Shown: positions 2,432-53,968 of the stretch, one piece after another
Position numbering within the stretch: position 1 is the first letter of the stretch
Layout of the letters: each line of letters starts with the position of its first letter
Assembly: GCA_019217005.1 (NCBI GenBank)
Contig: JAHBNG010000018.1
Coordinates: 62,001 to 126,000, forward strand
Length of the DNA stretch: 64,000 nt
Direction: 5' to 3'
Source: Chloroflexi bacterium TSY
Lineage (GTDB): Bacteria > Chloroflexota > Anaerolineae > Caldilineales > Caldilineaceae
Notes under the pieces: model-generated
Told to the model about the DNA's origin: nothing
The model's input: only the letters and a program-made list of their open reading frames with translations
The model's database searches: none
Program-made: the position numbers and the translations under genes

Positions 2432-3211
2432 GTGATAGATAGTCAACGAATGCAAGATTCTCAGGCGCCGCTAAATTTGCTTTCTCTCCTCTACGAAACC
2501 GAACAGACATACGGCTGGAGTGTTGGAATGCGGCAGATCACGCATAGATTGCTCGAGAATGTACCAATACCATTCGGCTTAATCATAGAGGTTGGCTGCG
2601 GTGGGGGTACGTTTGCTCAGGAATTGGCTAAATGTCACCCTGAGCACTCAATTGTGGGGTCGGATATCAGCGCACGAGCATTGACCGTTGCAAATCAACA
2701 CCGAACAGAGAAGATTCTGTTCACACAAGCAGATCTCGAACAGATGCCATTTGGTTCCTCAACTGCAGCCTGTATTGTTGCACTCGATTCATTTGACCAA
2801 CAGGGCATTAAGCTGCAAAATGCACTGGCAGAGAGTTATCGCGTCCTAGAACATGGTGGACTTCTATTTACACGTGTGAGCGCCCATGAGTGGCTTTGGG
2901 CACCGCATGATCGAGCTTTCAATACGGGGCGTCGCTATGGAATGGTCGAATTTGTTCAGGCGACAGAAAGTGTTGGGTTTAATATTGAGCGTGCGACCTA
3001 TGCCAATACATTTTTGTTATTTCCAATTACGCTACAACGTTGGCTTCAGAGAAAAGGCTGGCTGGTCTTCGAGTCATCCCTTTACACGAACCAAATTGCG
3101 AATTATCTTGTACGGCTCTTGTTGTCGATAGAAGCATCTTGGCTGCGTCGATATAATCTGCCAACAGGAATCAGCTTATTTGTGATGGCGCGCAAAAATC
3201 ATCATTCCTAA
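2432..3211 (+). CDS. Class I SAM-dependent methyltransferase
   Basis: 259 residues. The glycine-rich SAM motif I (IEVGCGGGTFAQEL) lies near residue 52, an acidic motif II-like segment (VGSDIS) follows, and an ADLEQMPF segment matches the adenine-binding region. This is a Methyltransf_11/25-type Rossmann fold. The chosen start is GTG at 2432; an ATG at 2450 is a credible alternative. It lies 36 bp after the membrane glycosyltransferase and 10 bp before a GT2 gene, so the three probably form one transcript for lipid-linked sugar or glycoconjugate modification. The substrate is unknown. Confidence 0.7.
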   Translation: MIDSQRMQDSQAPLNLLSLLYETEQTYGWSVGMRQITHRLLENVPIPFGLIIEVGCGGGTFAQELAKCHPEHSIVGSDISARALTVANQHRTEKILFTQADLEQMPFGSSTAACIVALDSFDQQGIKLQNALAESYRVLEHGGLLFTRVSAHEWLWAPHDRAFNTGRRYGMVEFVQATESVGFNIERATYANTFLLFPITLQRWLQRKGWLVFESSLYTNQIANYLVRLLLSIEASWLRRYNLPTGISLFVMARKNHHS

Positions 3212-10469: not shown

Positions 10470-11082
10470 ATGGAATTCAATGCCATGATGACTCCGCTTT
10501 TTTGGTTGGTACTAACAATTGCTCTAGTCGTTCTGTCTAGACTTATATACATTATTGATTTGATTAGGACTCACAATTTAACGAGGGCCCTCGAAAATCC
10601 AACAGAGATACCTGATGGTTTATCGCAGTGGGCAAAAACAGCTAATAAAACATATCAGGAGGTTTGGCAAAGCGTTGTCACTGTTCTCGTTTTAGTCTTA
10701 TTTGCTCATGTTGCGAATTATTTAGATAAAAAAATCATTGAGCTCGTAATTGGTTCTGCAACAAGCATATATTTTTTATCTCTACTTCGGGGTGGTTCAA
10801 AATTAGGTTTACACTTTTGATATATAGACAAAAATCTATATGAGACCGTTTTCTCTCTGAGAACCGGCGAAATCAGAGAATATAAACGTTCTTTCTGTTT
10901 CTAAAAGTGTAAACCTATCTATCCAGCTAAAATGAACCACCCCTCTACTTCTCCTATTTATTAATACCTTGACAGATAGCGACAGAGCAAAAAAAACCGC
11001 CAATTTTATTAGACATTTTATCGAATTACTGATATTGATTCTAATTATTCTCCAGGGAATTATTTGTGGAGGGAGCTGCTAA
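10470..11082 (+). pseudogene. Small membrane protein split by an R1 MITE
   Basis: The visible product is 116 residues, with a hydrophobic N-terminal helix and a second hydrophobic stretch near residues 75-110. R1 occupies 10789-10943 with an 8-bp duplication. Deleting 163 bp continues the frame for about 42 more residues, including a strongly hydrophobic final segment (ELLILILIILQGIICGG) and a TAA at 11080-11082. That gives a 149-residue ancestral protein. The element replaces this tail with ten residues of its own. No family recognised. Confidence 0.6.
10789..10943 (+). mobile_element. MITE R1 copy A (155 bp)
   Basis: The ends are GGGGTGGTTC and GAACCACCCC. The 8-bp target duplication TCTACTTC lies at 10781-10788 and 10944-10951. 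By eye the sequence is identical to copies D and E. No ORF spans the element. Confidence 0.92.
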
Positions 11083-11185: not shown

Positions 11186-11340
11186 GGGGTGGTTCATTTT
11201 AGGCGGACAATTAGGTTTACATTTTTGCAAAGAGAAAAGATGTTTATATTTTCTAATTTGAGCCATGCTCAGGCAGAAAATGACCTCATATAGATTTTTG
11301 TCTATGTATCAAAAGTGTAAACCTAATTCTGAACCACCCC
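11186..11340 (-). mobile_element. MITE R1 copy B (155 bp)
   Basis: It has the same terminal repeats, and the 8-bp duplication CGATTATT lies at 11178-11185 and 11341-11348. It belongs to a second sequence subtype, differing from copy C at only about two positions. It sits between the split membrane protein and the 3' end of the NB-ARC gene. Confidence 0.92.
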
Positions 11341-16409: not shown

Positions 16410-16466
16410 ATGACGCTTGTTATAGTTGCTTTCACCCAGTTCCTGAGAGGTGAAAACAAGCGTCAT
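16410..16466 (+). promoter_or_regulatory. Hairpin ending at the start region of the metalloprotease gene
   Basis: ATGACGCTTGTT (16410-16421) and TTTCACC (16430-16436) pair with GGTGAAAACAAGCGTCAT (16449-16466), with an 8-nt bulge on one arm. The loop and arm carry the GAGAGG Shine-Dalgarno-like sequence, and the far arm ends in the ATG at 16465. If transcribed, it would occlude translation initiation. A MITE origin is the alternative. Confidence 0.5.
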
Positions 16467-19400
16467 GAAATCACTTTTACAACAAAATACAGATCGCCAG
16501 AAACGTTCTGAGTCATCTTTCTCAAAGCCGAGACAGGATAAAACTTTTCTGGGCAGGTATTCGTCTCAGAGGCTTAGAATCCGGTTCCATTTGATTCTAG
16601 GCGTCTTTGTATTTTTGTTACTTGGGCCTATTTTAGCAAGTTTTTGGCTAGCTCCTTCATGGAATGCCATCCATTTCAATAGGCTACAATCGTTAGATTC
16701 TTTTGACTTCGCACAAGACAAATCTTCACTTCATTCACGATTGACACGATTGCTATTTACTGATTTTGAACGATGGCCATCCGTATTGCCAGAGTTTGAC
16801 AGGTTTGTTCATCCATACTTGGATAAGGTTGCGGATAGCCAGCCCCAAGCTGTAAGTGTAACACTTTCAGGACAGATTGATGATGTAACAAGCCTTAAAC
16901 AAAATATTTTAAGCAGTGCTCAACTAGTAAATCATCAAGTATCTGAGCCCGATCGCGCCCTAAGTCAGGGCAAACCCGAGATTGTTCTAGATGCAGAATT
17001 GCTCCAGCGAACACCATTGTGGCCCAATCCCTATCTAGCTTTTCTCCCCACTGGTGCTAGGCCTGAATATGCTCTATGGGAAGCACGCATGCGTACAGCG
17101 TCACAGCAGCGCGCTGAGCAGTACAGTATATCCTCTGCTGCATTTACCCAGTTCAATGAAGTGGAGCCAAACAATTCCTTAAATTCAGCGAATTTTATGG
17201 GGTGGTTCAGAATTAGGTTTACACTTTTGATACATAGATAAAAATCTATATGAGGTCATTTTCTGCCTGAGCATGGCTCAAAGTAGAAAATATAAACATC
17301 TTTTCTCTTTGCAAAAATGTAAACCTAATTGTCCGCCTAAAATGAACCACCCCAATTTTATCGCCAATTTAGGAACCGCTCCGGGAGATGCATCTGCTAT
17401 GCAGCTTGTGGGTATTCTGATCCCACCACCGGATGCCATACAGATTGCCTCATTTGATGAGGACAACGGAAGCATCTCGGTCTCAAGCGTTGTTCGTCTT
17501 GTTGAAGGCAGTCAGATCCGAACCACTGGCACGATTGGTGATGGTCCATATGGTGGGCAAGGGACAAGCTCTGGCGATTTTGATTTCTATCAGGTTGAGG
17601 CTCGTGCAGGTCAGACACTTCTTATTGATATTGATACGCCTCAACCGACCGCTGGTTTGGATTCGATCGTTGGCATTTACGCGTCTAATGGAGTTTTATT
17701 GGCTTACAATGATGATGATCTTTCCGGAGGTACATACGATAGCTATATAGAATTTAACGTGCCCGAAGATGGTCTTTACTATGTGGCCGTTGGAGGATTT
17801 ATCCAAGTCCCTGTTTCTCCCGATAGCTTTCCCCTCAATCCATTTGATTCAAGTAGTGGCCCTGGAGTTGGCAGCGAAGGAACTTATGCGCTCATAGTCG
17901 GTCTCAATGTTCCCATGGACTTTGACTATTTTAGCTTTGATTTGCAAGCTGGAGATATTCTTGGCATCAATGGACTGGAAAGTGTCCGAATGATTAAGTT
18001 GCTTGATGCTGCTGGGAACTCGCTAATTACTTCCTCAAAAGATACAGCTGGTGCATACCCAGAAACCTCACCTTTGCCCGCTGGGGGAAACACATCTTTG
18101 GCCTATGTTGCAAGCCGGGATGGTCGTTTCATCATTTCCGCTGAGAAGGGAGCCGGTCAGTACAAAATCGAGGTCAATGTATATCGACCTTTGCTGTCCC
18201 AACAGGATGGAGAAGCGATTCAAACCATTTTTCTGGATTTTGATGGTGCCACAATCAACCCCTCTATTTTTAGTGGTCCAGATGAAGAGCGAACGCTTTC
18301 GCCTTTCCGCACATTTTTACCCCGTTGGGGTCTGACGGCAGCAGATGAAAACGCAGTGCTCGATGCCATATTAAAAGTTGTCCATGAAAACTTAGCGCAT
18401 GATGTCAGCGGTAGTACAGGCAAAGGACGCAATGGCGATTTTCTGATTACAGGCATTCCAGGCGAATTTGCCATTCAAATTCTCAATAGCCGAGATCATA
18501 CCGATCCAGTTGGACATCAGCATGTCAGCCGCGTGATCATCGGGGGAACAACCGAACAGGCAGGTATCAATACGATTGGTGTTTCTGAGTCCATCGATGT
18601 TGGAAATTTTGATACGTCCGAGAGTGCACTGGTTCTTCTTGATCTGTTGAGTGGGGGCACCAACGATCCAAATTCGCTTAATCGATTCGGCCTTGCCGGT
18701 TCACTATCCAAAATTGATTTGGTGGGCATCGGAGTTGGAAACATCGTTGCACACGAAGCTGGCCACTTTTTTGGCAATTGGCATACAAATAATAGCTCCT
18801 CAACTCCGGCTAATATCATGGACCGCGGTGGGGACTTGTCGAATATCGTTGGTATCGGTCCAGATAATATCTTTGGATCTGCCGACGATCAAGATGTTGA
18901 TTTTGGCATCGATCAATATACACCAGAGGAAGATCTTGTTGGCTTGCAGGATACGTTACAAACGATAGCATTTGGTCTTTCGACAAGCGCCCTTCCTCCC
19001 CAACTTGATCTTCAGCAAAGCGTTACTCCAACAGTGATCACACCAGGGGATTCCTTGACCTTCACAATCTCTTATTCAAACATTGGCTCAGCGATTGCAA
19101 CAGGTGTTGTCATTTCCAATATTTTCCCTTCTCTTATCACAGAGCTTTCCTATGTTAGCCAAGGTGCAAAGTTGGAAACCATTGGATCAAAACCTTATGT
19201 TTGGCAGGCTGAAAATCTAGCTTCAAGACAAGGGGGCATCATTCAGGTAACAGGGATAGTTTCTCCTGATCTTGTGGATGAAGAAACCATTATTAGCAAT
19301 GCACTTCTTCATGCCAACCATCTCGACGTCTCCGGAAGTAGTAGTGTATCAACGGAGTACGAGATCAATCTCCCCCCATCTGTTGATATTGGTGGACCCT

Positions 19401-21088
19401 ATCGAGTCTTCCGAGATACACCGGTTCATTTGGCAGCCAGTGCAACCGATCCAGGAAATGATGAGTTGTTCTTTCGCTGGGATTTCGATGGTGATGGAAA
19501 TTTTGATGACGGTGAAGGCCTCAAACCACTATTTAATCCGTCTGACTTTGGCGAACTTGAGGTTGTCGAGATCACCGTACGCGTAAATGATAGCGACGGT
19601 GCTTATGATACGGCGACAACCGCAATCGTGATTGTCGACAGAGAAGCAATCGCCAATCCTGGTGGCCCCTATCATGTAAATGAAGGTGATGTCGTAACAC
19701 TGGATCAAACGTTTGTGAGCGCAGCGTTTGGCAATGCTGTTCAATATGAATGGGATTTCGATGGTGACGGTGTTTTTGATGACGCAACGGGCAAAACACC
19801 AATCTTTGATGCACGCCAGCAAGATGGCCCTGCGACTGTCACGATAGCCATGCGTCTACTACTCCCAGAGAATGAACAACCCTGGGTCGGCACAACAAGC
19901 GTCATGATACAAAATGTGATGCCCATCGCTCGCGGTGGTGGTCCATATAGTGTCGATGAGGGAGGAACCGTCATGTTAACTGGCTCTGGTGAAGATGCCT
20001 CTTCACTGGATTCACTAGAGTATGCTTGGGACCTGAATGGGGATAGATTGTTTGATGATGGAGCTGAGGCAGAGCTTCTATTTGATGCCGCTGGCTTGGA
20101 CGGTCCACAAACTCTTGATGCCATGTTGCGCGTCATGGATGACGACGGGGGATTCATGACAAGCACGATCCAGATTAATATCCAAAACGTTAAGCCAGTA
20201 GCAGTTGACGATGTCGCAAAACCTTATATGAATCGGGCAACGAATATCGACGTGTTAAAGAACGATATCGATGCAGGAGGAGATACCCTCACAATACAAG
20301 CGGTTGGAACACCAAATAATGGCGTGGCAACAACAGATGGTATTACAGTGGTCTACACGCCAACAGCAGAGTTCATCGGGTCGGACGAGTTAGAGTACAC
20401 AATCATGGATAAGGATGGGGCTAGCGATTCAGCAGTCGTAACGATTCGAGTGGAACCCCAGCCTGCGGCAATTCATGTGACCGACGATGTCGTCACAGGA
20501 ACACAAGATACGACTCTTACTATTGATGTTTTGGCCAACGATCATGGCGCAGATGAAGAAACGTTGCTGATTCGCGAAGTTGGTGAAGCGCTTAATGGTA
20601 ACGCAACGACTGATGGTTCAATCATTGTCTATACACCACGTAGTGGGTTTAGCGGTCGCGATCAGTTTTCATATCTAGCAACCAACTCAATCGGATTAAC
20701 TGACTCCGGATTGGTTGCTGTAGAAGTACGCAAAGGCGGCACCGTTTCCGGTACTATCTTCTTGGATGAGAACGAAAATGAGCGATTCGATGAAGGGGAA
20801 GAAGGGATAGCCAATGCCACAATTACATTAACAGCTATTGAGCGCTTCGCATCCTTTGGAAATCCAGACGATCGGCTTTCGTTCCAGACAAAAACAAACT
20901 CACGAGGCTTTTTCTACTTTGACTTTGTACTCCCAGGTAGCTACGATATCTCAATGGAACCACTCGTATTGAACCGTAACGCTCCAATCGGTTCAGTGAT
21001 TGAAAGTCGTGGTCAAATAGATGTTCCGCAAAGACTTCCTCTATCAAATAAACAATTAAAGTTTTTCTTGCCATTGATGCAAAGGTAA
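16450..21088 (+). pseudogene. Giant secreted PKD-rich zinc metalloprotease, split by R1
   Basis: Two visible pieces (16450-17198 and 17362-21088) join in frame after removing R1 and one 8-bp copy: SANF runs into IANLGTAPGDA, giving 1491 residues. There is an N-terminal membrane anchor near residues 50-72. Two PPC-like beta domains follow (DFDFYQVEARAGQTLLID, then DFDYFSFDLQAGDIL). A metzincin site HEAGHFFGNWH lies at about 714-724 with NIMD as a plausible Met-turn. Then come a DUF11-like segment, three PKD repeats with DFDGDGxFDD calcium loops, two cadherin-like repeats (DVLKNDIDAG, DVLANDHGAD) and a C-terminal SdrD-B-like repeat. It would be a cell-surface or secreted protease. Start is GTG 16450 or ATG 16465. 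Confidence 0.8.
17199..17353 (+). mobile_element. MITE R1 copy C (155 bp)
   Basis: The target duplication AATTTTAT lies at 17191-17198 and 17354-17361. It belongs to the same subtype as copy B. It introduces a stop that truncates the metalloprotease after 263 codons. Confidence 0.93.
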
Positions 21089-32193: not shown

Positions 32194-34120
32194 GAACAAA
32201 ACAGATGCTCCCCTGGATTGGGCTCAGGCCCTCGAGCAGGCGAAGGAGGATCGCGCCAAGATCGACCAGGCGAAACTGATTGATGAGCCGGGGGAGTTGG
32301 CGCTAGAGTCTAGTCAAAAAATTAGTCAAGATTGGGCACTCTTCCGTCTGTTAGGAGAATCACTTTGGCCCTATAAAGGCTGGATGCTGGCCGCTTTATT
32401 CCTGATGATCATTGTGGCTACGCTCAACGTCATTCCGCCACTTCTTTTGCAATGGGCAATCGATGGTCCACTTGCACAAGCGATCAACAATCCGCAAGGA
32501 AGTGGATTCAATGGACTTCTTGCCCAGTCGACAGAAAGCGGATTGTTAGGCATCGCCGCATTGTATGCTCTCACTGCAATTGGCATCTATGGAATTACCT
32601 ATGCTTATACCTATTTCTTGCAACAGGCAGGGCAACGTGCATTGGCCGATCTGCGCGTGCGTCTCTTTAATCATCTACTGAACCACGACTATGCTTTTCT
32701 TTCCCAAACGTCTACGGGTGAACTGGTCGCAAGGTTGACCAATGATATTGACCAACTGAATGCCGTATTATCGAGCAGCGTCGTGGTGGTCCTAGTGGAA
32801 GGGGCAACGCTAATTGCTGTCGTGACGATGATGTTTGCGATTAATTGGCGTCTGGCGCTCCTAGCATTGGCTATTTTGCCGGTTGTTCTCGTGGTAACGG
32901 TCTATTTTCGTGCACGCCTGCGCCGCTCATCGACGGGTGAGCGTTCAGCGATGGCCCGCATTAGTTCATTTTTAAACGAGCATCTCCACGGCATGACAGT
33001 TGTTCAACTCTTTAATCGAGAAAGTGAGAGTGAAGAGGAGTTTGACACCTACAACAGTCGGTATCGTCGAGCGCTGATTTTGGTGCGCAAGCATAGTGCC
33101 GTTTTTCTTTCCGTGCAAGAGATTCTGGCCTCGATCGGGCTGGCCCTCATGCTCTATGCTGGCGGCTTGGGCGTACTGGCTGGCTGGGCCACCTTGGGTG
33201 TCTTGGTTGCCTTTATCCAGTATACGCAACGCGCCTTTCGTCCCGTTATTATGTTGTCACAGCAATACAATGCGGTACAGATTGCGCTGGGTGCGGCGGA
33301 ACGGATCTATCGAATGTTGAATACTGAGCCAAACATTCAAAATCCACAACGGCCTACATCCCTAACCAATTTGTCTGGTTCCATTCAACTTGAGGATGTC
33401 CATTTTCGCTATGTTGAAGATGAGCCTGTTTTGCGCGGCGTGTCGCTGGATATTCCGGCCGGACAATCCGTGGCCATTGTAGGGGCAACAGGTGCAGGGA
33501 AGTCCAGCTTGGTGAGTCTACTTGCCCGTCAATATGATCCCCAAAAAGGAGCCGTCAAGCTAGACGAGATCGATATCCGCGAATTAAATCTGGCTGACCT
33601 GAGACGGTCGGTGGCTGTAGTCCCACAGGATCCAGTCTGTTTGGCAGGAAGCATTGAGCGTAATATTCGTCTTTACCGCAACGATGTGAGTGAAGAAGAG
33701 ATACGCAAAGCTGCAGAATTTACAAACGCGGCTCAGTTCATCGATGAATTACCAGGGAGATATGATTTTGAGGTTCTGCCGGGCGGTGCAAATCTTTCAC
33801 AAGGGCAGCGGCAATTATTGGCATTGGCCCGTGCTTTGGCCCTCAGCCCCAACGGCGTACTGGTATTGGACGAAGCCACCAGCAGCATCGACACTGCAAC
33901 AGAGGCGCTGATCCAAGATGCTCTGGAACGTGTTTTGCGCACCCGCACCAGCCTCGTCATTGCTCATCGCCTGAGCACCATTCGCAACGCTGACCGGATT
34001 ATCGTGATGGACAAAGGGAAAGTTGTCGAGGACGGGGAGCATGATTCGTTACTGGCCCTGAATGGTTTTTATGCACGGTTGCATGAGCACCAGGTTATGC
34101 CAGAGATGGTGGCTGTATAA
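32099..34120 (+). CDS. ABC exporter subunit 2 (catalytic half)
   Basis: 673 residues from the ATG at 32099, with GGAGG eight bases upstream, inside the end of subunit 1. A hydrophilic 70-residue N-terminus precedes six transmembrane helices and an NBD with Walker A GATGAGKSS, Walker B VLVLDEATSSID (Glu present) and H-loop VIAHRLSTI. Its signature reads LSQGQ instead of LSGGQ. In a heterodimer this deviant signature faces the degenerate Walker B of subunit 1, so both oddities fall in one ATP site. It matches TM287/288-like multidrug or lipid exporters. The substrate is unknown. Confidence 0.88.
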   Translation: MASMDSNQTDNVLVPKMEGNGTNGTKFQHTIENKTDAPLDWAQALEQAKEDRAKIDQAKLIDEPGELALESSQKISQDWALFRLLGESLWPYKGWMLAALFLMIIVATLNVIPPLLLQWAIDGPLAQAINNPQGSGFNGLLAQSTESGLLGIAALYALTAIGIYGITYAYTYFLQQAGQRALADLRVRLFNHLLNHDYAFLSQTSTGELVARLTNDIDQLNAVLSSSVVVVLVEGATLIAVVTMMFAINWRLALLALAILPVVLVVTVYFRARLRRSSTGERSAMARISSFLNEHLHGMTVVQLFNRESESEEEFDTYNSRYRRALILVRKHSAVFLSVQEILASIGLALMLYAGGLGVLAGWATLGVLVAFIQYTQRAFRPVIMLSQQYNAVQIALGAAERIYRMLNTEPNIQNPQRPTSLTNLSGSIQLEDVHFRYVEDEPVLRGVSLDIPAGQSVAIVGATGAGKSSLVSLLARQYDPQKGAVKLDEIDIRELNLADLRRSVAVVPQDPVCLAGSIERNIRLYRNDVSEEEIRKAAEFTNAAQFIDELPGRYDFEVLPGGANLSQGQRQLLALARALALSPNGVLVLDEATSSIDTATEALIQDALERVLRTRTSLVIAHRLSTIRNADRIIVMDKGKVVEDGEHDSLLALNGFYARLHEHQVMPEMVAV

Positions 34121-34354
34121 AAGCATTTATAATATGTTGGAGCCTGTATAAATCAAGCAGGGCGATACGGCAAAGTTTACAAACTCGTAGAATGGTCTTG
34201 TGGGGCAGTGTGGCTACTTTAGGAATGGGAATTTAATAACTTGTACAGTTGGTGCGAGATTAGAGATTACATGGGCCGAATCTCTCTATCTCTACTCTCA
34301 CAATCTCCAAATGCCCAAGTTATTTACGGCTCATTCCTTAATCAATTCGAAACA

Positions 34355-34573
34355 TTATGCAGGCTCCAACCCAACCATTTGGAGCATCTTCGCCTGGACT
34401 GATTCCAGAACCGTATCTCTCATGAAGACAGAAGCATTGAGAATTTCAACACCAATTAGCTCGTTCTTCTCATTTAGTTCAACGATAATATTTGGAGTCA
34501 GTTCAAGACTATTGCTCTCAGGACCTTCCATAATCACGATATGCAATATATCTTCTTGTTCGAAATAAGTCAT
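34355..34573 (-). CDS. DUF2283 family small protein
   Basis: 72 residues. The pattern DILHIVIMEGPESNSLE then IIVELNEKNELIGVEILNAS is the DUF2283 core, a short beta-rich unit ending in the GxEIxxAS motif. It is often found singly or next to DUF4258-like toxins, but no partner is seen here. Function unknown. Confidence 0.72.
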   Translation of the reverse strand: MTYFEQEDILHIVIMEGPESNSLELTPNIIVELNEKNELIGVEILNASVFMRDTVLESVQAKMLQMVGLEPA

Positions 34574-34608
34574 CTTTGGTTAATTCATTCGTATATCTTC
34601 CCGTTTTT

Positions 34609-36990
34609 GGGATGGTTCATTCCAGCTGGAGAAATAGGTTGACACTTTGCCACGGGGAGGAGGCGTTCTCTATTACACGCAGTAGGCCAAAAAAGGGGTA
34701 AAATAGCCCTAGGAGGCCAAAATGAACCAAGAATTTAGCGCCGCAGTAACAGGATTCTGTGCCCATGTGAGAATGCTTTCTCCGCAAAGCGAAACTGTAA
34801 AACATTACGAAAGTGACCTAAATCAATTTGGCCAGGTGATAGAAAAAAGGCCAAGAGAGATAGGTCGCCAAGAGATAACGACGTTTGTAACGGCGCAACT
34901 CGAAGCGGGGATGAGCAGTGCGACGGTCAATCGCAGAGTGGCAACGTTGAGCCGATTTTTCGACTACTTGGCGGATGAGGCAGAAGACGAAAGCTGGTCA
35001 AACCCGGTGGTGTGGCGTCTACACCGACTGGATACAGGTTGCCATCTTCCCAGAGATATAGCGGAACGCATCGTCCGCCAGTTATGGGGGAGCGTGAGTC
35101 AAGGTCAGATAAGAGACCAAGTGATGTTGGCCTTGATGCTCGACGTTGGCCTGCGGGTGGGCGAAGTGTCGAAACTAGAGATGGGCGATATTGAAGCTGC
35201 CATAAATCCGGACGAACTGTGGTCACTGCGCGTACGCGGCAAAGGGAACAAAGAGCGTCGAGTCTGGTTGACGCCAGAAACCACAGCGCTGTTGGTGAGC
35301 TATATGGATGAGCGTCCTGATGCAGTCGATAGCCATCTGTTTCTGACTCGTCGTCACAAAGGCATCAGTGTCCGCGGAATCCAGGAGCGCCTCGATTATT
35401 ACCGTCAGCAAGCCGGACTCTCCGAGAACAAGGTCTCCTGTCATCGCCTGCGCCATACCTTCGCCAGACGAATGGCAGAGTCGCGTATGCCACTGCCTAG
35501 TCTCTCTCATTGGTTGGGCCACAGTCAATTGAAAACGACCCAGATTTACATCGATGGTGCCAATCCTGATATGCGAGCCGACTATGAAGCTGCTATGGAG
35601 CAGTTGTCTCGCCAAGCCGCATGCTCGGATATTGAAGGAACGACATCTGCAATAGAGACAGAGAATACTGTGCCTTCTGAACATCGCACAGTGGAGCCAG
35701 CTGTTGGCATCTGTTTGTCCGCTGATGAGATCCGTCAACGTCTCACCTCATTGCCGCTCTGGCTTCATCAACCCATCATCTCATTACTTCTCCACCAGCA
35801 ATTACGCTGGAAAGCCCTCTATCGGCGGGAACGAGCCCTTCAGTGGCTTGGCGAACTCCAACGCGGTTGGCAATGGATGCTCGACCAGCGCATGCTCTCC
35901 AGCTTATCCGAACTAAGACGGCGCGATCTCCAAGACTACATCACCCACCTATGTGACTTAGAGTATTCCGTCCATACCATCAATCATTTTATTTGTACCC
36001 TCAAGAGTTTTCTGCATTTTGCTGAAGAATGTGGCCAGTCGATCGCTCCGGCTTTATATCGCATTCAACGTCTCAAACGACCCACTACCTTACCTCGTCC
36101 GTTGCGCCAGCATGAATTTGCTCAACTTGAACAGTTCGTCTTAAACTCAACGGCTCAGAGCCTTTCTCCTTCCGACCTCCTTGACCGTGCTTGGTTTCTT
36201 ATTCTGGTTGATGCTGGGCTACGTATGGGCGAAGTGCAAGCTCTGCTCGTTTCTGACTGGAATTCGGATACACAGACTCTGCTCGTTCGAGATGCCAAAT
36301 CCCATCGTGACCGTCGGTTGCCTGTTACCCAACGCACTGCTCTTGCCATCGATGCCCATCTGCAACATCGCACCGATGACCTGGCTACTCATTCCCCGCT
36401 TTTACTACGCGATGGCTTACCTCTTCGAGCCAATTATGTGCGCAACCATCTTCATGCCTTTGCCGCCCAAGCTAACTTAGAGGGCGTCACTCCTCATCGC
36501 TTGCGCCATACCTTTGCCACCCGTTTGCTCAACAGTGGCCTTATGCCCATCACTACCTTGCAGAAACTCATGGGGCACACTCATATCGATACCACCATGC
36601 TTTATGCACAGCTCTACGATGAAACCATTCAGCAGCATTATTTAGCCGCTATGGCTTCACATTCTGTTTACGCTATCCCTGAACCTGACCCCGCTATTTG
36701 GGGTCCCACTTTGGAGAATGCCTTTGAATCAACTTTTCAACAGCAACCACTTTAACTTTTATGTCTACTGCGTGTAATAGAGAACGCCGATTCTAGTCGG
36801 GTAGAGCCGCATTAGAGATTACACGCAGTAGGATTTCTCAGAGGTAGAGCGTTCAAATGGCGAAAAAAGACGCAGTAGAGAATCTCGGACCATTTGGCCC
36901 GCTCGAGTCTGTTTTGACTGAGAAGTGCAGGATTATGTCTACTGCGTGTAATAGAGAATGCTCCCTCCTCGGGTCGACTTTGTATGCTGG
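34609..36990 (+). mobile_element. Tyrosine recombinase element bounded by inverted repeats
   Basis: The left side holds a 25-bp core GGCGTTCTCTATTACACGCAGTAGG at 34662-34686. Its complement recurs at 36764-36788, nine bases after the recombinase stop, with 24 of 25 matching. Another complement copy lies at 36939-36961, and partial cores at 36817-36832 and about 36870-36884. Outside the left core, GGGATGGTTCATT...AGCTGG...ATAGGTTGACACTTT resembles an R1 end. The right exterior has a CAAAGTCG-type segment (complement strand) resembling R9. The outer boundaries are approximate. Confidence 0.6.
34722..36755 (+). CDS. Fused double tyrosine recombinase
   Basis: 677 residues containing two complete phage-integrase units. 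Unit 1 (about 1-295) has an N-terminal SAM-like DNA-binding domain, Arg in LDVGLRVGEVS, Lys in RGKGNKERRVW, HRLRHTFARR, the LGHSQLKTTQIY histidine and the tyrosine. Unit 2 (about 330-665) repeats this with GLRMGEV, AKSHRDRRLP, HRLRHTFATR and MGHTHIDTTMLYAQ. Both active sites therefore look intact. Single XerC/XerD-type recombinases are about 300 residues, so this is an apparent head-to-tail fusion. AGGAGG precedes the ATG at 34722. Near-identical inverted cores sit 36 bp before the start and nine bp after the stop, presumably its substrates. Confidence 0.88.
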   Translation: MNQEFSAAVTGFCAHVRMLSPQSETVKHYESDLNQFGQVIEKRPREIGRQEITTFVTAQLEAGMSSATVNRRVATLSRFFDYLADEAEDESWSNPVVWRLHRLDTGCHLPRDIAERIVRQLWGSVSQGQIRDQVMLALMLDVGLRVGEVSKLEMGDIEAAINPDELWSLRVRGKGNKERRVWLTPETTALLVSYMDERPDAVDSHLFLTRRHKGISVRGIQERLDYYRQQAGLSENKVSCHRLRHTFARRMAESRMPLPSLSHWLGHSQLKTTQIYIDGANPDMRADYEAAMEQLSRQAACSDIEGTTSAIETENTVPSEHRTVEPAVGICLSADEIRQRLTSLPLWLHQPIISLLLHQQLRWKALYRRERALQWLGELQRGWQWMLDQRMLSSLSELRRRDLQDYITHLCDLEYSVHTINHFICTLKSFLHFAEECGQSIAPALYRIQRLKRPTTLPRPLRQHEFAQLEQFVLNSTAQSLSPSDLLDRAWFLILVDAGLRMGEVQALLVSDWNSDTQTLLVRDAKSHRDRRLPVTQRTALAIDAHLQHRTDDLATHSPLLLRDGLPLRANYVRNHLHAFAAQANLEGVTPHRLRHTFATRLLNSGLMPITTLQKLMGHTHIDTTMLYAQLYDETIQQHYLAAMASHSVYAIPEPDPAIWGPTLENAFESTFQQQPL

Positions 36991-37186
36991 TTTTAATTGA
37001 TGAACGCTGACCACCTTCATTCATATTGAGTGGGTTTCATTATGAATAGATCAAATCAACTCGGGCTGCGGTTTGCAATTTTGATGGTTGCCAAATCTAG
37101 ATAGGTGTGCTAATATAATAGTTGCGTGATGAATTGACTGTTGTGATTGATTATTCCCCATTTATCTCATACAGAAAAAATAGATA
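36756..37186. repeat. Core-site array downstream of the recombinase
   Basis: It contains core copies in alternating orientation (36764-36788 plus, 36817-36832 minus partial, 36939-36961 plus). From 36991 to 37186 nothing was recognised other than the presumed promoter region of the next gene. Confidence 0.6.
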
Positions 37187-38233
37187 ATGTCTCTACTGCA
37201 CGATCTCCCGAAGTTGCGGTTCTCGATAGCCTTGTACATGGTTCCCCTTTTGATTATAAGTGGGTGTGCAGGGTTCAGCTGGCTAGACGAGTCTACCCTT
37301 GTCCAGACAAGTGTATCTGGTACATCGACACCTGTTCCCTCCCTAACGCCAACCCCCACCATCGCACCAACTCCTGAACCAACTCCCACTCCCGCTGCGT
37401 ATGCTGTTTTACGAACACGCGGTGGAAATCTTCGTTCAGGTCCAGGGATGAACTTTCCCGTGGTTTTGGTGATTAAACAAGGCGATATCTATCCGATTGT
37501 TGGTCGAAGTGAAAATCGTAGTTGGTGGCAGCTCTGTTGCGTACCAAACCCGGACGATACGACGGGTGAAACGCAAATACCTGTTTGGGTTGCAGCATCG
37601 ATCGTTGACGTTGAGGGTGATGCTGCACAAATCACCGGACAAATGGAGCAAGTTGACCGGCCAGAACCTCTCTTTGCAGACGATTTTACGGCACAATGGA
37701 CAATCTCCTATCGCTGTGATTCGCAAAGATGTGAGGTCGCCGAATGCGGCGGTGAAGTGCTTGTGCAAGTCCGCAGCATTCTACAAAACACCTGGTTAGA
37801 GCTTGATCACTCTGTGACATGGCCAGATGAGTGTGGCGACGACACAGTCGCACTCTACCAGATCAATCGATATACAGGCCAAGATCGGTACGTCGGTGAA
37901 GATGCAGCATTCTTTGATCGCTACTGGATGGGTGCCAACTTTGTGAAAGCCGACAAAACCATATCTCTCCCCGATGGCCTAGCCGTACAGGCCTGGTGTA
38001 CAGAACCACAATCGCTTGAGTTGGAAGCGAATGAGAACTGGATCGTTGTTCATGACGGTGAAGCCTGCTACGACGTGGACACCGGTATGATGATCCAACT
38101 CTCCTACTCGAAACGCTGGCTTTTTACGGGTGTTGTGGAAGGGCAAAACTTTGAGCGAGCGTTCTTTGGGGACACCGAATATTATAATTTTGATCTTCAT
38201 TTCACCAATGCACCTCTCGGTGATACGAATTGA
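37187..38233 (+). CDS. SH3-domain lipoprotein
   Basis: 348 residues. The N-terminus is a lipoprotein signal (KLRFSIALYMVPLLIISGC, Cys at about 27). A Pro/Thr-rich wall-spanning linker follows (PTPTIAPTPEPTPTP). Next comes a bacterial SH3 domain (LRTRGGNLRSGPGMNFPVVLVI...WWQL) at about 68-125. The C-terminal 200 residues are beta-rich with several cysteines and no recognised family. It is probably anchored on the outer face of the cytoplasmic membrane, binding peptide or glycan. It stands just downstream of the recombinase element. Confidence 0.78.
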   Translation: MSLLHDLPKLRFSIALYMVPLLIISGCAGFSWLDESTLVQTSVSGTSTPVPSLTPTPTIAPTPEPTPTPAAYAVLRTRGGNLRSGPGMNFPVVLVIKQGDIYPIVGRSENRSWWQLCCVPNPDDTTGETQIPVWVAASIVDVEGDAAQITGQMEQVDRPEPLFADDFTAQWTISYRCDSQRCEVAECGGEVLVQVRSILQNTWLELDHSVTWPDECGDDTVALYQINRYTGQDRYVGEDAAFFDRYWMGANFVKADKTISLPDGLAVQAWCTEPQSLELEANENWIVVHDGEACYDVDTGMMIQLSYSKRWLFTGVVEGQNFERAFFGDTEYYNFDLHFTNAPLGDTN

Positions 38234-41572: not shown

Positions 41573-44500
41573 TCAACAAACGTTATGAGGTTCTTCGCTG
41601 CCGAAATATTTGGTCCATTCTGTATCGGTGAATCTCTCCCGATTAGCACGTTGGCATGCGTGCTGTTCCCAAACCGACACATCTACATGCCACATAATAA
41701 CCGCAGACGCTGTATTTGCCACAAGCCGCTTGCCCAAACTATCAAATACCAAATGACTAGCAGAACCTAGCACAGAGTCTATCCTCAACTCACCAATTGA
41801 TCGTCGGGTGGCCATATCCCATAGTGTAATGATGCCATCCAAACTGCTCGTGGCAAGCATTGAACCATCACGATTGAATGCAAGGGATTCTACTGCCTTA
41901 CCAGCGGTAGCCAGCAGTTGCTGCTCATCGTTATCTAAATTCCAGAGAGTTGGAGGATGTTGTAATCGTGCGCCGGATGCAAGCAGATTACTCGATTGAT
42001 CGGGACTGAAAGCAATGACCATCACACCGTTGGAACCATTTAATGGCAGCTTGCCGTGTAGTTGTCCACTAGTGGTATTCCACAACGTGATAAGACCGTC
42101 TCCGCTACTGGCAGCTAAGAGTGAACCGTCTGTACTGAACGTCACGCTGGTGATAAAGTTGTCAAAAGCTTTAATTTGTGATATCAGTTGGCGATGCGTT
42201 TCAACATCCCATAAAATGACGGAACCGTCATAACCACCAGAGGCTAACTGACTGCCATCAGGACTAAAGGCCAACGTCTGAACAAAGTCCGTGTGCCCTT
42301 GAAATGCTCCCAGTGTCTGTTGCTGTACCGCATCCCATAGACGAATCTCACCGGTCTGGCAAAACCCTGCTTCATCCAGGGTACAGCCACCTGTTGCCAA
42401 TAGATTGGCCTGTTGTTTGGGGCTGAAAGCAACACTTTGCACGCCCCCCTCAGGAACTTGCAGTACCCCCAACAAAGTATTTTTCATCAGGTCCCGAATT
42501 TCGAGTTCACCTTCAAGACAGTGAATTCTATCCATTGCTGCCTCTGTACATTTACCAACTGCCAACAGCTTGTCATCTGGGCTGATTGCGGTATCCTTAA
42601 TCGCATGGTCCTGCTGCATTATTATCTTCATCAGTTTCTGATTGACCTCGCTGTCCCAAAGAATCAGCCGCCGATCACTGCCTCCGGACAACAGTGTGTG
42701 GCCATCCGGAGCAATTGCAATGTCAGTCGCCCAATCGGTGTGACCAACCAGTTCGCGCACAAGCGCAGTTGGCCGATCATCTGGATAATCCCAAACAGAA
42801 ATGGTCCCCTGTACACACTCTGGATAAAATATGGTACTCGTTCTGAAGCTGCCACACAGGCTACCAATGAGTTGCTTGCCATCAGGGGTGAACCGTAAAC
42901 TGCGTATAAAGTTGTTTGGATTTGGATATTCCCTTAAGCTTTGGCCATTGACGAGATCCCAGACAATCATGCCGCCCCGTCTGCTTGAAACCAATACATT
43001 CGGATTCCGAGGGTTGAAGGCTAAACTCAAAGGCGCATCAGGATGACCGACGAATACCTGCTTCGATGACCAGCCATCTTCAATGTCCCACAGCCGAATT
43101 TCGCCTTGGTTACAATTCCCATATTGATCACCATTGGCACAACTACTAGGAGCCAATATATGTCCATCTGCGCTAAATGCAAGATCGTTAACACTACCGA
43201 ATGGAACAGATAGTACGGGTGTAGTTCGTTCCTGAAGGACCAAATCCCAGATCCAGATCTCACCACTCTCGCAAAACTCCTCGCGAGACCAACCGGGTAA
43301 GGTACAACTTCCTGATGCCAAAAAGCGACCGTCAGGTAAGCTAATTGCCAAACTTCTTACTGATCCAGGATGGGCATAGAGTGTGCGGCTGATTACATCG
43401 TCGCTTGACAGATCCCATGAAGTAACGTTGCCTTTGACATCGGCCGAAAAGAGAATTGGTTCCTCAGGATGCCATACAATTCGAAACACTTGATTGGAAG
43501 GACCAGTAAGCGTCCTAATCTGGGTCCGTTCCAATACGTCCCACAGAGCAATCGTCCCATCTAGGTCGCCAGCAGAGGCCGCCATCCGCCCGTCAAATGA
43601 AAATTCAACGTCTAAGACTGTATCCTTGTGTTTTGGAAGAAATGCCAGCAGGCCAGGCTTGGCCTTAGCGACGGATAATAGACTCGATCGCGCTGCAAAT
43701 GTATCGGCAAGATGTTTAGCTTCCACAGCAAGTAGAAGGGCTAAATCAAGCTCTGTGTCCTTTAAGGATTCTGCTTGAGCAGCCAGTGCCCGAGAATTGC
43801 CCTGGCTAGCTGCTGTTGCGCGTCGATCCGCTAAGTAGTAGAAAAACACAGCGATCACTGCCAGGACAGCCGCAACGGTACCGATTCCGATAGCTATGCG
43901 AGCACGACGCTGGATGCGTACATTGGCCTCCTCCTTATCTTCGGCACGTTTTTGTTGCTCTTCTGCGCGCGCTTCTTCGGCCTCTGCTCTTTTACGCTGC
44001 TCTTCGGCAAATTCTCGTTGGCGCTCGATTTCTTCCTGCTGTATTCGATCACGTTCTCGAATACTAAGATTCAAAAACTCTTGTGCATCTTTGGACTGCA
44101 CTGCGACATCATCCATCTGGCGTAATTTCTCTCCCTCTGCCAAATAGACGCCGCTCAGTAAAAAGGCATCCGATCGTTGGTTCTCTAACCAATCGTTAAC
44201 ATGTAATTCAAAACGTCTACGTTGTTGAAGGTGCTCTCGCTGTTCCTGGACAGCTGCTCGTAGGTGCTGCCAGTTGAGAATCAACGATTCGTGGATGATA
44301 TCAACTGATTCGACCTCTTGATCGTTGGCGTCTATCTTCTTTTCACCAGTGCTCAGAAGGCGTTCAGTCGTAAGTTCTTGGATCAAGTTTTCGATATCAT
44401 TTTGACCCCGGGTGACATCATCTAATCGGCGGGTACGTCTTACATCTCGACGGATATCTTCTTCCAGTGAGACATCGACCAGATCCAGAAATATATTAAG

Positions 44501-45062
44501 AATGGTCTCCTGTTCTTGAGGTGTACGGTCGATCACATTGTTGTGTACATCGCGTTTGAATTGATAAACATCATCGGCACGCTTGCGAATGGCATCTGTT
44601 AGACTCAGTAGATCCAAATTTCAGGTTTAGAGAGAGAATTCTGGCTAAACAGTTGACATAAATACAAATTTGCCGGTCGATATCTAGTTTTTGCGTTAGA
44701 TTTGGGCGATTTTCAGATATGAAATAGGTTGTTTTCTGTAACCGAAATCTGAATAAATGACTCCAAAATCCCTGCAATCTCGACTGAAAATCGCCAAAAA
44801 CGCCAAATTTGGATCTACTGAGACTTGTATAATGGTCTGCAGTCAATAGACCAGTACGCCAGATATCGTCCAACGTTACCTGGAGTAGTGGGAGGTAAGC
44901 GGCGTCTTCACCGGCGTCTCTGGCCAATACATTTAGTAATGCATCTTGAAAGCGCTTGCCCGTGTTGGGGTGCATTGACTGCAACGGACGTTGAATTGCA
45001 ACTTTCAACTGTGCTTCGTTCATGACCCGCAAATCAATGCCTGTTTTGGCCAATTCGTAAAG
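41573..45062 (-). pseudogene. nSTAND1-WD40 protein A, central and C-terminal part
   Basis: This is the continuation of the gene starting at 47525. After the IS4-like insertion, coding resumes (LYELAKTGIDLRVMNEAQL) and is broken again by R2 at 44606-44820. Removing R2 plus AGACT joins HYTSL to TDAIRKRADDVYQF. Next come a helical region, a charged coiled coil (repeated EEQRKRAEAEEARAEEQQKR), one transmembrane helix (IAIGIGTVAAVLAVIAVFFYYL), and about a dozen WD40 blades with GSDRRLILWD-type endings. It ends with EWTKYFGSEEP. The ancestral protein is calculated as 1356 residues: a membrane-tethered sensor NTPase with a beta-propeller. Confidence 0.8.
44606..44820 (-). mobile_element. MITE R2 copy 1 (215 bp)
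   Basis: The ends are CAGTAGATCCAAATTT and AAATTTGGATCTACTG. The 5-bp duplication AGACT lies at 44601-44605 and 44821-44825. It differs from the copy at 49193-49407 at about two positions by eye. Confidence 0.9.
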
Positions 45063-45250
45063 CTTTACTTTCTGGTAAAGGCTTGAGTGACAAAGGGCAA
45101 ACCGAAAGGGGCGGAAAAAAGAATCCACCCTGAAAAAACGGGATAAAATGTAAAAATAGTGCTCGGCTAGTTTAAGCAGCGGCATTGAGGCGGCGATGAG
45201 CGAGAACGCCTTTAGGTAAATGGTGTGAAACCGAGGCCTTTTTCCGAAAG

Positions 45251-46620
45251 TCAGGGTCGAGTTGGAAAAAGAGCACTCGAGAGAACGCGGCGCAGCCTGC
45301 CGGGAGTGGCTTGAGGCTCTCGATCCCAGTAGCCAGTCGGTATGGGAGGAAGAGAAGCGGCTAAATGGGAAAGAAGATTGCCAGCCAGCAGCCCCAGTTC
45401 AGGTAAGCGGAAGCAAGCCTCATCGGCATGAACAAATTGACGATGTAAGCCAATCATCTGCTTGGAAGCCAAGGGGGGATGTTCAACAGGCCAGCGCTCC
45501 AGATAGAAAAGATAAATGGTTTCGGGGTGGTTCATTTTAGCTGGATAGATAGGTTTACACTTTTAGAAACAGAAAGAACGTTTATATTCTCTGATTTCGC
45601 CGGTTCTCAGAGAGAAAACGGTCTCATATAGATTTTTGTCTATATATCAAAAGTGTAAACCTAATTTTGAACCACCCCATGGTTTCAGCTTGTAAAGCCA
45701 TGACGGTCGCCAGAACCAAAGGTGTGTGATAAGCAGGATCCTGAAAGACGTAAATCGAATAGGTGCGGTTGGCTGTATCCACCTTGGTTGTCCTGGGGAC
45801 GAGATTGTGCCATGCTTGATAGCGAATCAGGCGACCACTATAGACAAATTGACCAAACGAGTCTGGAGTTGTGGCCTCGAGTCGCTTTCCCCTATAGCAT
45901 CGAGAGAGCGGACGCACAATATCACCATATTCGGGTGGTCTGCCTTTTTCCTTACGTTCGGGTAACTCATTGCGGCGCGCTGTGCAGTTAATCGCTTCCC
46001 GAAGGACAAATCGGTCGACGTCGCTTTCTAGCATTTCTCTGATTGTAAACCCGGCATCGACCACCGCCACTTCGTCTGACTCCAGTGATTTCTTCGTCTC
46101 TTTCAGCAGCTTTTTCCGAAACTCACTTTCCTTTGTGCCTACCTCGCATCTCATGATTGCCTTGAGCAGTGGCACTCGTTTCCCGCCTATCTCCCCCGAG
46201 CTTATCATCACTCCAAAGATGAGCGCGGGCAATGCCCCGACGAGCCGTTGAGTTATAGAGTCGGTTCACTTTCCCTTGCAGCTTCGGTCGCCAGAACCCT
46301 GTGATATCTATGCTTTTCACTCGGTATCCTTCTAACTTTTTTGCCTCCCATTCCCCTTTCCACTCCACTTCTTCTTGCCACGATGAGAGCAGGCTTGCAA
46401 TATCCCATGATCCATATCGAAAGCTCCACCAGCTTCGCCGGAGCTCCTCATCTTCAAACCCGCTTTCACTCAATCCACTATGGATTGCTCCTCGACTTTT
46501 CAGAAACGACCCATTCATCATCGCCCACATCAGACGCATTACATTTACGTTTGTTCCCACCGGCGTTACTTGCAATACATTCATCAGTACTGCTATAGTT
46601 ATTTCTGGCGCGGTTAGCAT
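45251..46620 (-). pseudogene. IS4-like DDE transposase, frameshifted and interrupted
   Basis: The reading frame breaks near 46245 (RLYNS versus RLVGALPALIFG) and is cut by R1 copy D at 45524-45678. Rejoining gives VMALQAETIYLFYLERW. The C-terminal segment YLERWPVEHPPLASK fits the Y(2)R(3)E(6)K signature of IS4-family transposases. The acidic residue in VAVVDAGFT and the glutamate of that signature are likely catalytic. Inactive as it stands. Confidence 0.75.
45524..45678 (-). mobile_element. MITE R1 copy D (155 bp)
   Basis: The duplication ATGGTTTC lies at 45516-45523 and 45679-45686. By eye it is identical to copies A and E. It is nested in an IS that is nested in STAND gene A. Confidence 0.92.
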
Positions 46621-46719
46621 TCCTTCCTCCTTTTTGGGTTCTCTACCTTTAGGATGAAACGCTAACCGCTTTTTGTCACATTTCTCACCTCATCTCTTTT
46701 CTTTTACCAGAAAGTAAAG

Positions 46720-47525
46720 TAAAGAGATTCATCGGCAAACAAGTCTGGTAGGTAGTCAGCACGCATAGTGGCAATGATATGCATGCGCAAGTCTCGAAAA
46801 GGAGGCAGCGATGTAAGTAAGGAGAAGATTTCTTTGCGTTGAACTGGCTCTGACTGGCTAAATATCTCTTCAAACTGGTCGATAACCAGGATCGATATCT
46901 GGTTATCGTTGACCGGATTGGGTGGTGGGGCTAGTTGATACTCAGCGGCTATGGCAAATACGTCCTTGGCGGCCAAATTGAGCTGGCGCAATGCACCAGC
47001 CAAACCAGCCAATGGCTTTTCGCCAGGACGAAAAACAGCGTGGCGCAGCGTGAATTCTTGCTGGTGGTAGTACGCTTCTAAAGCGGGCAGCAGTCCTGCT
47101 TGGGCAAAGGAGGATTTGCCGCTGCCACTAGCCCCGGTGACAAAGAGTAGGGTACGTTCGCCACCGGATTGCGTTAGTCGTGTAAGAGCATCCGCAACCT
47201 CCCCTTCGCGACCGGCATAACGATTGCGTTCGGCATAAGTGAACGCTTGCAGCCCTATGTAAGGATTTTTCATACCTCGTACATCATAGGCTTGGTCACC
47301 GGTGATCTCCTGCCGTTCAATGTAAGTTTCGGCATCGATCTTGCGCGAATGGGTGCCGGTCAATACATCGCCTTTAATGATGTCAGCGACAACACTTCCT
47401 TTCCCATCAGCCTTGGATCCAGCACCTACGGCAAGGCCATCGTCACCAGTATCGATAGTACCAGCCTTGACCATGCCACCATTCGTGTTCACGTCACCGT
47501 CAATATTGGTCTGATTTCCACCCAT
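46720..47525 (-). pseudogene. nSTAND1-WD40 protein A, N-terminal part
   Basis: It begins at the ATG at 47525 with a glycine-rich segment of alternating D/G/V (QTNIDGDVNTNGGMVKAG), a type seen before NTPase domains in Chloroflexota STAND proteins. NPYIGLQAFTYAERNRYAGRE then marks the nSTAND1 domain, with Walker A TGASGSGKSSF and Walker B ILVIDQFEEIF. The frame is stopped by the IS at 46719, whose removal continues the protein into 45062. With the other part it forms a 4071-bp ancestral gene. Confidence 0.8.
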
Positions 47526-49187: not shown

Positions 49188-49192
49188 AGACT

Positions 49193-49407
49193 CAGTAGAT
49201 CCAAATTTCAGGTTTTGAGAGAGAATTCTGGCTAAACAGTTGACATAAATACAAATTTGCCGGTCGATATCTAGTTTTTGCGTTAGATTTGGGCGATTTT
49301 CAGATATGAAATAGGTTGTTTTCTGTAACCGAAATCTGAATAAATGACTCCAAAATCCCTGCAATCTCGACTGAAAATAGCCAAAAACGCCAAATTTGGA
49401 TCTACTG
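49193..49407 (-). mobile_element. MITE R2 copy 2 (215 bp)
   Basis: Same ends and length as copy 1. The 5-bp direct repeat AGACT lies at 49188-49192 and 49408-49412, the same target sequence as copy 1. Confidence 0.88.
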
Positions 49408-49578
49408 AGACTGAAGGGTGAAAGTGAGGGCTCAAAGAGGGGAGGAATGCAAGCCGGAGGTAGAAAGTCGTTGTGGGATGAAAAAGAGCCTATGGTGCGG
49501 AAAGTCAGGCAGGGGGAATCAAGCGCAGTCGTGAAGGAGTGCGGAAAGCAAGAATCGGTTGGTGGCCGCTAGCGGCAG

Positions 49579-53813: not shown

Positions 53814-53968
53814 GGGGTGGTTCAAAATTAGGTTTACACTTTTGATATATAGACAAAAATCTATATGAGACCGTTTTCTCTCTGAGAACCGGCGAAATCA
53901 GAGAATATAAACGTTCTTTCTGTTTCTAAAAGTGTAAACCTATCTATCCAGCTAAAATGAACCACCCC
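53814..53968 (+). mobile_element. MITE R1 copy E (155 bp)
   Basis: The duplication TTCTCGCG lies at 53806-53813 and 53969-53976. By eye it is identical to copies A and D. It is inserted near the right end of the ISAzo13-like element, upstream of its transposase start. Confidence 0.92.

Follow-up and report, generated by a model that had tools for sequence, protein, structure and literature searches.

Among mobile systems that use more than one tyrosine recombinase, the SE elements (SEs), the Tn554 family, RIT elements, and GInts come closest to the locus described here. SEs carry two tyrosine recombinases per element and have imperfect inverted ends of 13–19 bp, with a 6-bp spacer both at the circle junction and at the target; after insertion, one flank reportedly carries the 6 bp of the target and the opposite flank those of the donor, a footprint similar to that left by relatives of Tn554 (PMC10214605). 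The SE criterion also includes the lack of an empty site after circle formation and a strand-biased junction (PMC10214605). The Tn554 family comprises tyrosine-recombinase transposons with a 6-bp insertion footprint (PMC3414803, PMC10214605), RIT elements are small, contain solely tyrosine recombinases, and have an inverted repeat around their genes (PMC3414803), and GInts use several integrases as a mobility module (PMC5385486). Dispersed palindromic repeats serve as insertion sites for the small REP-targeting insertion sequences, including IS621, ISPpu9, and ISRm22 (PMC1525189). The present analysis concerns a 64,000-nucleotide stretch of contig JAHBNG010000018.1 from Chloroflexi bacterium TSY (positions 62,001 to 126,000 of the forward strand; hereafter the 64-kb window, by whose numbering positions are given), in which a single gene encoding two fused tyrosine recombinases lies between inverted 13-bp cores. 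With a probability of about 80%, this locus would be an insertion-sequence-like transposon of ~2 kb with one gene, whose movement would use tyrosine-recombinase chemistry and a stagger of 6 bp; the relatives suggest that it inserts into short dispersed, often palindromic host repeats. Defined ends, duplicated target bases, and uninterrupted target copies, all marks of a mobile element, are present in the relatives; the window copy taken alone has defined ends, and a direct 6-bp repeat is absent from its large unit and present in an adjoining miniature unit.

The fused gene, its ends, and its probable target sites

A single open reading frame (ORF) of 677 aa at 34722–36755 on the plus strand, preceded by AGGAGG at 34711–34716, encodes two full tyrosine recombinases in one chain, as the initial annotation had proposed. 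The N-terminal recombinase (residues 1–295; 34722–35606, plus strand) and the C-terminal recombinase (from residue 330; 35709–36755, plus strand) are supported by Pfam, catalytic alignment, and tree. PF00589 is found in two stretches of the whole protein and in each half alone (E 3.1e-29 for residues 1–295 and 1.5e-28 for residues 330–677), and both halves are members of the tyrosine recombinase (PF00589) superfamily. The N-half also matches SAM-like N-terminal domains, for which the C-half scores 20.7 bits, under the Pfam cut-off of 22.3. A full R-K-HxxR-H-Y set is present in the N-half (R145, K174, H241, R244, H267, and Y276) and in the C-half (R501, K526, H592, R595, H619, and Y628), and all six residues are kept in both halves in 123 of 124 aligned rows, the lone exception being locus L008, where H592 of the C-half is changed to C. 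These rows comprise the window protein, 12 genome loci with a fused gene (L001–L012), and 111 proteins of at least 640 aa from the best 120 of 701 homologues (E ≤ 0.001) obtained by scoring the 7994 candidates sharing most words. The genome loci belong to 80 loci retained out of 382 in a scan of one genome per species, among which L001–L012 have the highest scores and a single open frame over both halves.

The top-scoring family models for each half are XerC, XerA, and XerD. The whole protein remains under the curated cut-offs of XerC (TIGR02224, 294.8 vs 335.15) and XerD (TIGR02225, 253.9 vs 329.6), and its score of 286.9 for the archaeal-type XerA/integron-like model NF040815 lies above the cut-off of 220 as the sum of two domains, each half alone staying below it (157.4 and 133.9). 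An AlphaFold model built with 18 sequences has a mean pLDDT of 78.7 and a pTM of 0.52, with a low-confidence linker at residues 300–328 and poorly determined mutual placement of the halves. Its Foldseek matches include XerA, XerH-difH, the Tn1549 integrase, and, within the top 20, the integron integrase VchIntIA (2a3v); XerA and XerH are the best folds, and the best match (E 1.4e-11) has a target-normalised TM-score of 0.55 and a root-mean-square deviation of 15.8.

All four exact copies of the core CTACTGCGTGTAA in the window are at this locus, at 34673–34685 (minus strand; left terminal core TTACACGCAGTAG), 36765–36777 (plus), 36819–36831 (minus), and 36939–36951 (plus); a fifth core-like place at 44599–44611 has two mismatches, and 0.79 such places are expected by chance at that laxity. 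The first two copies are the left and right terminal cores of an element of 2105 bp (34673–36777, plus strand), whose boundaries are drawn by analogy, because the 6-bp repeats and uninterrupted target copies of the relatives put the ends there. The 20-base sequence CTACTGCGTGTAATAGAGAA is present without mismatch at 34666–34685 (minus), 36765–36784 (plus), and 36939–36958 (plus), against a chance expectation in the window of 0.01 at up to three mismatches. The distances of 36 bp before and 9 bp after the gene given previously are correct and the inverted sites are real, but the proposed 25-bp inverted core is a composite of the 13-bp element end, a 6-bp overlap, and part of a target arm. The overlap reads TCTCTA outside the left core (34667–34672) and TAGAGA outside the right core (36778–36783), the latter being the reverse complement of the former and not a direct repeat. 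Beyond it lies a left target arm, CGGGGAGGAGGCGT (34653–34666), whose inner GGCGT pairs with the right target arm ACGCC (36784–36788) and whose whole length pairs imperfectly with 36958–36971. The alternating cores noted downstream of the gene also exist, but they bound a separate unit of 133 bp (36819–36951) that shares both cores with the large element and contains no gene. This unit is flanked by TAGAGA on the left (36813–36818, adjoining the arm GCAT at 36809–36812) and on the right (36952–36957, adjoining the arm ATGC at 36958–36961) and contains a partial core, ACGCAGTAGA (36870–36879); by its cores, exact TAGAGA repeat, and arms, it is probably a non-autonomous mini-element. No RNA elements above Rfam thresholds were found in 34000–38000.

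The ends of the relatives read TTACAC(T/G)... and its inverted copy. Cores stand beside 11 of the 12 fused loci, at both ends in nine and at the right end only in L001 and L002, so that the core sites accompany the gene in its orthologues, as the initial annotation would lead one to expect. In nine of the 12 loci, the right core holds the gene's own TAA stop codon; the gene ends shortly before the right core in L006, L011, and the window. A C-terminal [NDYHST][CSYF][VMLI] is found in 90 of the 111 long proteins, compared with a background of 0.8%; 69 of these endings are NCV or NCM, and such a C-terminus is what in-frame translation of the right core (AAC-TGC-GTG-TAA) would produce. The left core differs from the reverse-complemented right core at 0–2 of 13 positions in all 10 loci compared, a complementarity matched by 0–3 of 500 base shuffles per locus, and the core-to-core length in these loci is 1978–2105 bp.

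The 6 bp outside the cores, whose positions were fixed without use of these flanking bases, were compared in L004–L011 and the two window units (n = 10). L001 and L002, whose left end is lost at the contig start, L012, which has no core, and L003, whose right flank is masked after four bases that agree with the left flank, were omitted. The left and right 6-mers are identical in six of the 10 cases: L004 (GAGGAC), L006 (CCAGCG), L008 and L009 (CCTGCG in each), L011 (TCATTG), and the window mini-element (TAGAGA). In the others, they read TGTGCA/GGCGCA (L005), CGCAGG/CGCCAG (L007), ACGCAC/ACGCAT (L010), and TCTCTA/TAGAGA (the large window unit). Altogether, 51 of 60 positions match, compared with a mean of 19.5 and no value as high as 51 among 20,000 re-pairings, and a shift by one base reduces this to 43 positions and one exact repeat, giving a sharp single-register peak. 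The arms outside the 6 bp are mostly inverted (44/60 positions vs 20.9 when re-paired, P 5e-5).

Uninterrupted target copies were sought in 10 relatives' genomes (G001–G009 and G011; G010, G012, and G013 were left out), using as pattern the overlap and right arm only for G001 and G011 and the outer palindrome, not the bases adjoining the element, for G007. In five of these genomes (G002, G006, G008, G009, and G011), the target is a dispersed repeat with uninterrupted copies, which are palindromic around the 6 bp in G002, G008, and G009. For example, the joined 25-bp site is found in G009 at 20 places within three mismatches, one of them exact (reversed control 0), and the alignment crosses the junction at all eight fetched places; in G006, there are 15 places within three mismatches (control 0), and the alignment crosses the junction at seven of the eight fetched. 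Similarly, the 13-mer of overlap and right arm occurs exactly 14 times in G011, including the element's own flank (control 0), and three fetched places align across the junction, of which one is on the element's own contig, ~110 bases upstream of it. The palindrome predicted for G002 from the right flank of L002 and the left flank of L003 is found at 15 places, eight of them exact (control 0); one place (L201) is 98.7% identical to the right flank of L002 across 150 bp, and its sequence continues uninterrupted by the element. The flanks of L008 joined with one CCTGCG align across the junction with two other places in G008 (235/294 and 211/269). The repeat into which the L008 element is set likewise ends in inverted sequences (L008 positions 818–851 and 3134–3167; 34 nt, 71% complementary, GCCTAATGTGACC...) and may be a miniature element itself.

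Relatives and origin of the two halves

The closest protein among the matches listed is from Chloroflexi bacterium TSY, with 97% identity over 89% of the query and an internal 12-residue gap, and its 90% cluster of 40 member sequences, for which one contig is given, may hint at many copies. The relatives are nearly all from Chloroflexota: going by record titles, the 12 fused loci comprise 10 from Chloroflexota, Anaerolineae, Anaerolineales, or Thermoflexales metagenome-assembled genomes, one from Candidatus Chloroploca, and one from a 'bacterium'. At E ≤ 1e-60, the fused gene was found in eight of 396 genomes of the class of G003, with at most three candidates scored per genome; among 25 genomes from the order to which G001 belongs, three have it.

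The frame between the halves is open in all 12 fused genome loci, but 25 other loci (within L014–L039) have an N-type ORF followed by a separate C-type ORF, read as stop-to-stop frames; these count against the initial reading, which named a stop or start between the halves of orthologues as a refutation, though they mostly form groups of their own in the tree. In that tree of halves (85 rows including 13 outgroup rows, midpoint root), the fused N-halves and the first genes form one clade (100/99), and the fused C-halves and the second genes form another (100/96). Since each half-clade is joined by separate genes, two recombinases that had long been paired seem to have become fused in this protein, and a recent tandem duplication appears not to be its source. 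The covalent heterodimer put forward in the initial annotation fits this arrangement, one polypeptide comprising two different recombinases whose halves fall into two clades with the separate genes of the sister loci. The separate-ORF loci keep to their own groups except for the stand-alone C-type ORF of L025, which lies amid the fused C-halves and shows that a C-half stands alone in at least one relative. Both halves of L012 are placed inside the two-gene group, which suggests a second, independent fusion.

A candidate left end of the two-gene loci, CACTTATCTTAACCA, is exact in five of 23 scanned loci (22 two-gene or partial loci and L012) and has one mismatch in four more, and the right ends are uneven. 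The left flank of the two-gene loci L014, L016, L020, L021, L022, and L039 adjoins an RHS-type core motif (like YDPxLGRF...DTIVP), which amounts to six of the 15 loci inspected, and in three, LGR[FW] stands directly at the presumed element end; the conserved core of RHS genes may be the target to which these relatives home. In Bacillota, L053, L054, L065, L068, L072, and L080 have two-recombinase ORFs of 628–664 aa followed by a third, separate recombinase ORF, and L044, L048, and L067 have four or five consecutive single tyrosine recombinase ORFs. L054 and L065 fall outside the fused family in the tree, and double fusions therefore seem to have arisen more than once.

Proposed movement, rival explanations, and other repeats

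The arrangement of ends, overlaps, and arms is consistent with an element that would excise as a circle, with a junction of core-N6-core' that would itself be a tyrosine-recombinase site. This circle would then recombine with a target repeat (arm-N6-arm') within its central 6 bp to give arm-N6-[element]-N6-arm'. At each end of an inserted copy, 6 bp separate an element core from a target arm, so that two different tethered recombinases could sit one on each; the N-half and C-half, tethered as a heterodimer, would each take one half-site and together do the job of the separate genes in the sister loci, and both half-sites could be bound by one polypeptide, as suggested initially. The simplest reading of the large window unit is that it was inserted the opposite way round into a symmetric TAGAGA-type target, with TCTCTA on the left from the target and TAGAGA on the right from the donor; given the symmetric arms GGCGT/ACGCC, insertion in this orientation would explain the reverse-complementary flanks. 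The 133-bp derivative would be moved by the enzyme of the fused element. Such a system would be an unusually small transposon of the tyrosine-recombinase kind, in which a single chain carries two half-site readers; it would make the division of work between half-sites by heterodimeric recombinases testable with one protein and defined DNA, and it would name a source of insertions and mini-elements in Chloroflexota.

In pairwise comparisons of the window with L001–L011 and of these with one another, the N-half is more alike than the C-half in 62 of 66 pairs (64 of 66 for the core-binding part) and in 7179 of 7503 pairs over 123 rows (6754 of 7503 for the core-binding parts). Slower evolution of the N-half is expected if it reads the constant ends and the faster-evolving C-half reads the varying host-repeat arms. 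The C-half can only tentatively be proposed as a swappable targeting module, and other causes may also explain the slower evolution of the N-half; if true, a half that reads the target would suggest modular retargeting.

Several observations weigh against a transposon that homes into palindromic repeats. The flanks of the large window unit agree at just two of six positions, and its own flanks and target have no further copies beyond chance within the 64-kb window. Each of the 12 fused-gene genomes has a single copy (one extra match in G005 is of the two-gene type), and L012 has no core within two mismatches (best 3 of 11) and no recognisable ends. The arms are poor in L010 (3/6) and L011 (2/6). 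The searches in G003, G004, G005, and G007 yielded no copy of the predicted target, and G001, for which only the right flank is known, gave one place with three mismatches besides its own flank. None of the 15 places in G006 is exact. In G008, the palindrome pattern has two matches and its reversed control three, and the evidence from this genome therefore rests on the junction alignment. The uninterrupted copies in G006 and G011 are hardly palindromic around the 6 bp (left arms, e.g., GAGAAT vs AAGCAT), which makes homing into palindromes weaker than homing into repeats.

The same transposon might recognize its target as a folded single-strand hairpin instead of double-stranded DNA, in the way that integron integrases fold attC. 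Strong folding is predicted for the single strands of four reconstructed targets (z −3.5 to −8.6), the integron integrase VchIntIA is among the structural matches mentioned above, and the inspected arms have no evident sequence in common with the element core, so target shape could outweigh sequence. However, any palindrome folds, and folding scores therefore cannot separate a hairpin from a double-stranded target. Ordinary tyrosine-recombinase sites such as dif and lox likewise consist of two inverted half-sites around a 6–8-bp centre, and with the G006 and G011 targets being poor palindromes, hairpin recognition is considered unlikely.

The initial annotation left inversion or transposition open. 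The self-contained transposition module is supported, and an inversion switch, in which the gene segment would flip between the inverted cores and alter the expression of its neighbours, is very improbable. Inverted cores do flank the recombinase gene on both sides, and recombination between inverted sites would agree with the reverse-complementary 6-bp flanks seen in the window copy, but the segment between the cores is filled by the recombinase itself, and the direct 6-bp repeats of the relatives together with uninterrupted target copies elsewhere indicate insertion; the switch was rejected on these grounds. Weakest of all is a chromosomal or replicon-maintenance Xer system for dimer resolution at a dif-like site with subunits that happen to be fused, for which the Xer-type family models and folds of the halves and the 6-bp overlap, the same length as that of dif, could be cited, but which is hardly credible for a protein under the XerC and XerD cut-offs, with its own inverted ends, insertion in dispersed repeats, and a sporadic distribution (8/396 genomes of the class with at most three candidates scored in each, 3/25 of the order).

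Phage and plasmid origins were also rejected. The best of 76 viral-contig loci has an E of 6e-19 at 30% identity, 333 phage records are all below 60% identity (the 20 listed below 30%), and the 19-base window end has no exact match in viral contigs. The 3805 plasmid records are likewise all below 60% identity. The combined core-overlap pattern gave no match.

Other repeats are also present in the window. A dispersed repeat of ~156 bp occurs in both orientations at 10789–10943, 11186–11340, 17199–17353, 45524–45678, and 53814–53968, with three copies 100% identical and the two others 99% alike, and seems to be a miniature element that spread recently and belongs to a different family. The gap that separates the ORFs at 16450–17241 and 17273–21088 is covered by one copy, and the copy at 45524–45678 lies between the parts of an nSTAND1/WD40 gene (41573–47525, minus strand) that appears split over several ORFs, among them an nSTAND1 N-terminal part (46704–47525) and an nSTAND1 C-terminal part with WD40 (41573–44617). 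In addition, a 225-bp direct duplication (44601–44825 and 49188–49412) is 99% identical.

Comparison with described elements

Among the literature matches listed, in which subscription papers are mostly uncovered, no description of a fused element was found for fused or tandem tyrosine recombinases, and the matches listed for homing into dispersed palindromic repeats by tyrosine recombinases likewise held no description. XerC/XerD and archaeal XerA, which supply the best family models and folds for each half, are separate chromosomal proteins with a housekeeping role, whereas the present recombinases are fused, bounded by ends, and sporadic. The Tn554 family shares the 6-bp footprint, but Tn554 has three separate products, TnpA, TnpB, and TnpC, in place of a single polypeptide with two catalytic sets. 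The 13-bp cores and 6-bp repeats agree with the end and spacer lengths of SEs, here read from inserted copies alone; SEs differ in having four conserved genes (intA, CDS2, intB, and CDS4) and in being described from Gammaproteobacteria (PMC10214605), compared with one gene between the cores, Chloroflexota as hosts, and dispersed repeats as targets. RIT elements consist of three adjacent overlapping genes, ritA, ritB, and ritC, in ~3.5 kb (PMC3414803), whereas two are fused here in ~2 kb. GInts are set apart, by the title and abstract of their source, as genomic islands with four essential genes (PMC5385486). The REP-targeting insertion sequences are similar in size and in their choice of target, but the families named for them are IS3, IS110, IS4, IS256, and IS5, and the word 'tyrosine' is absent from that source (PMC1525189). 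The SEs, Tn554, and RITs, among the nearest systems, thus fail on gene content as a description of this one-gene element.

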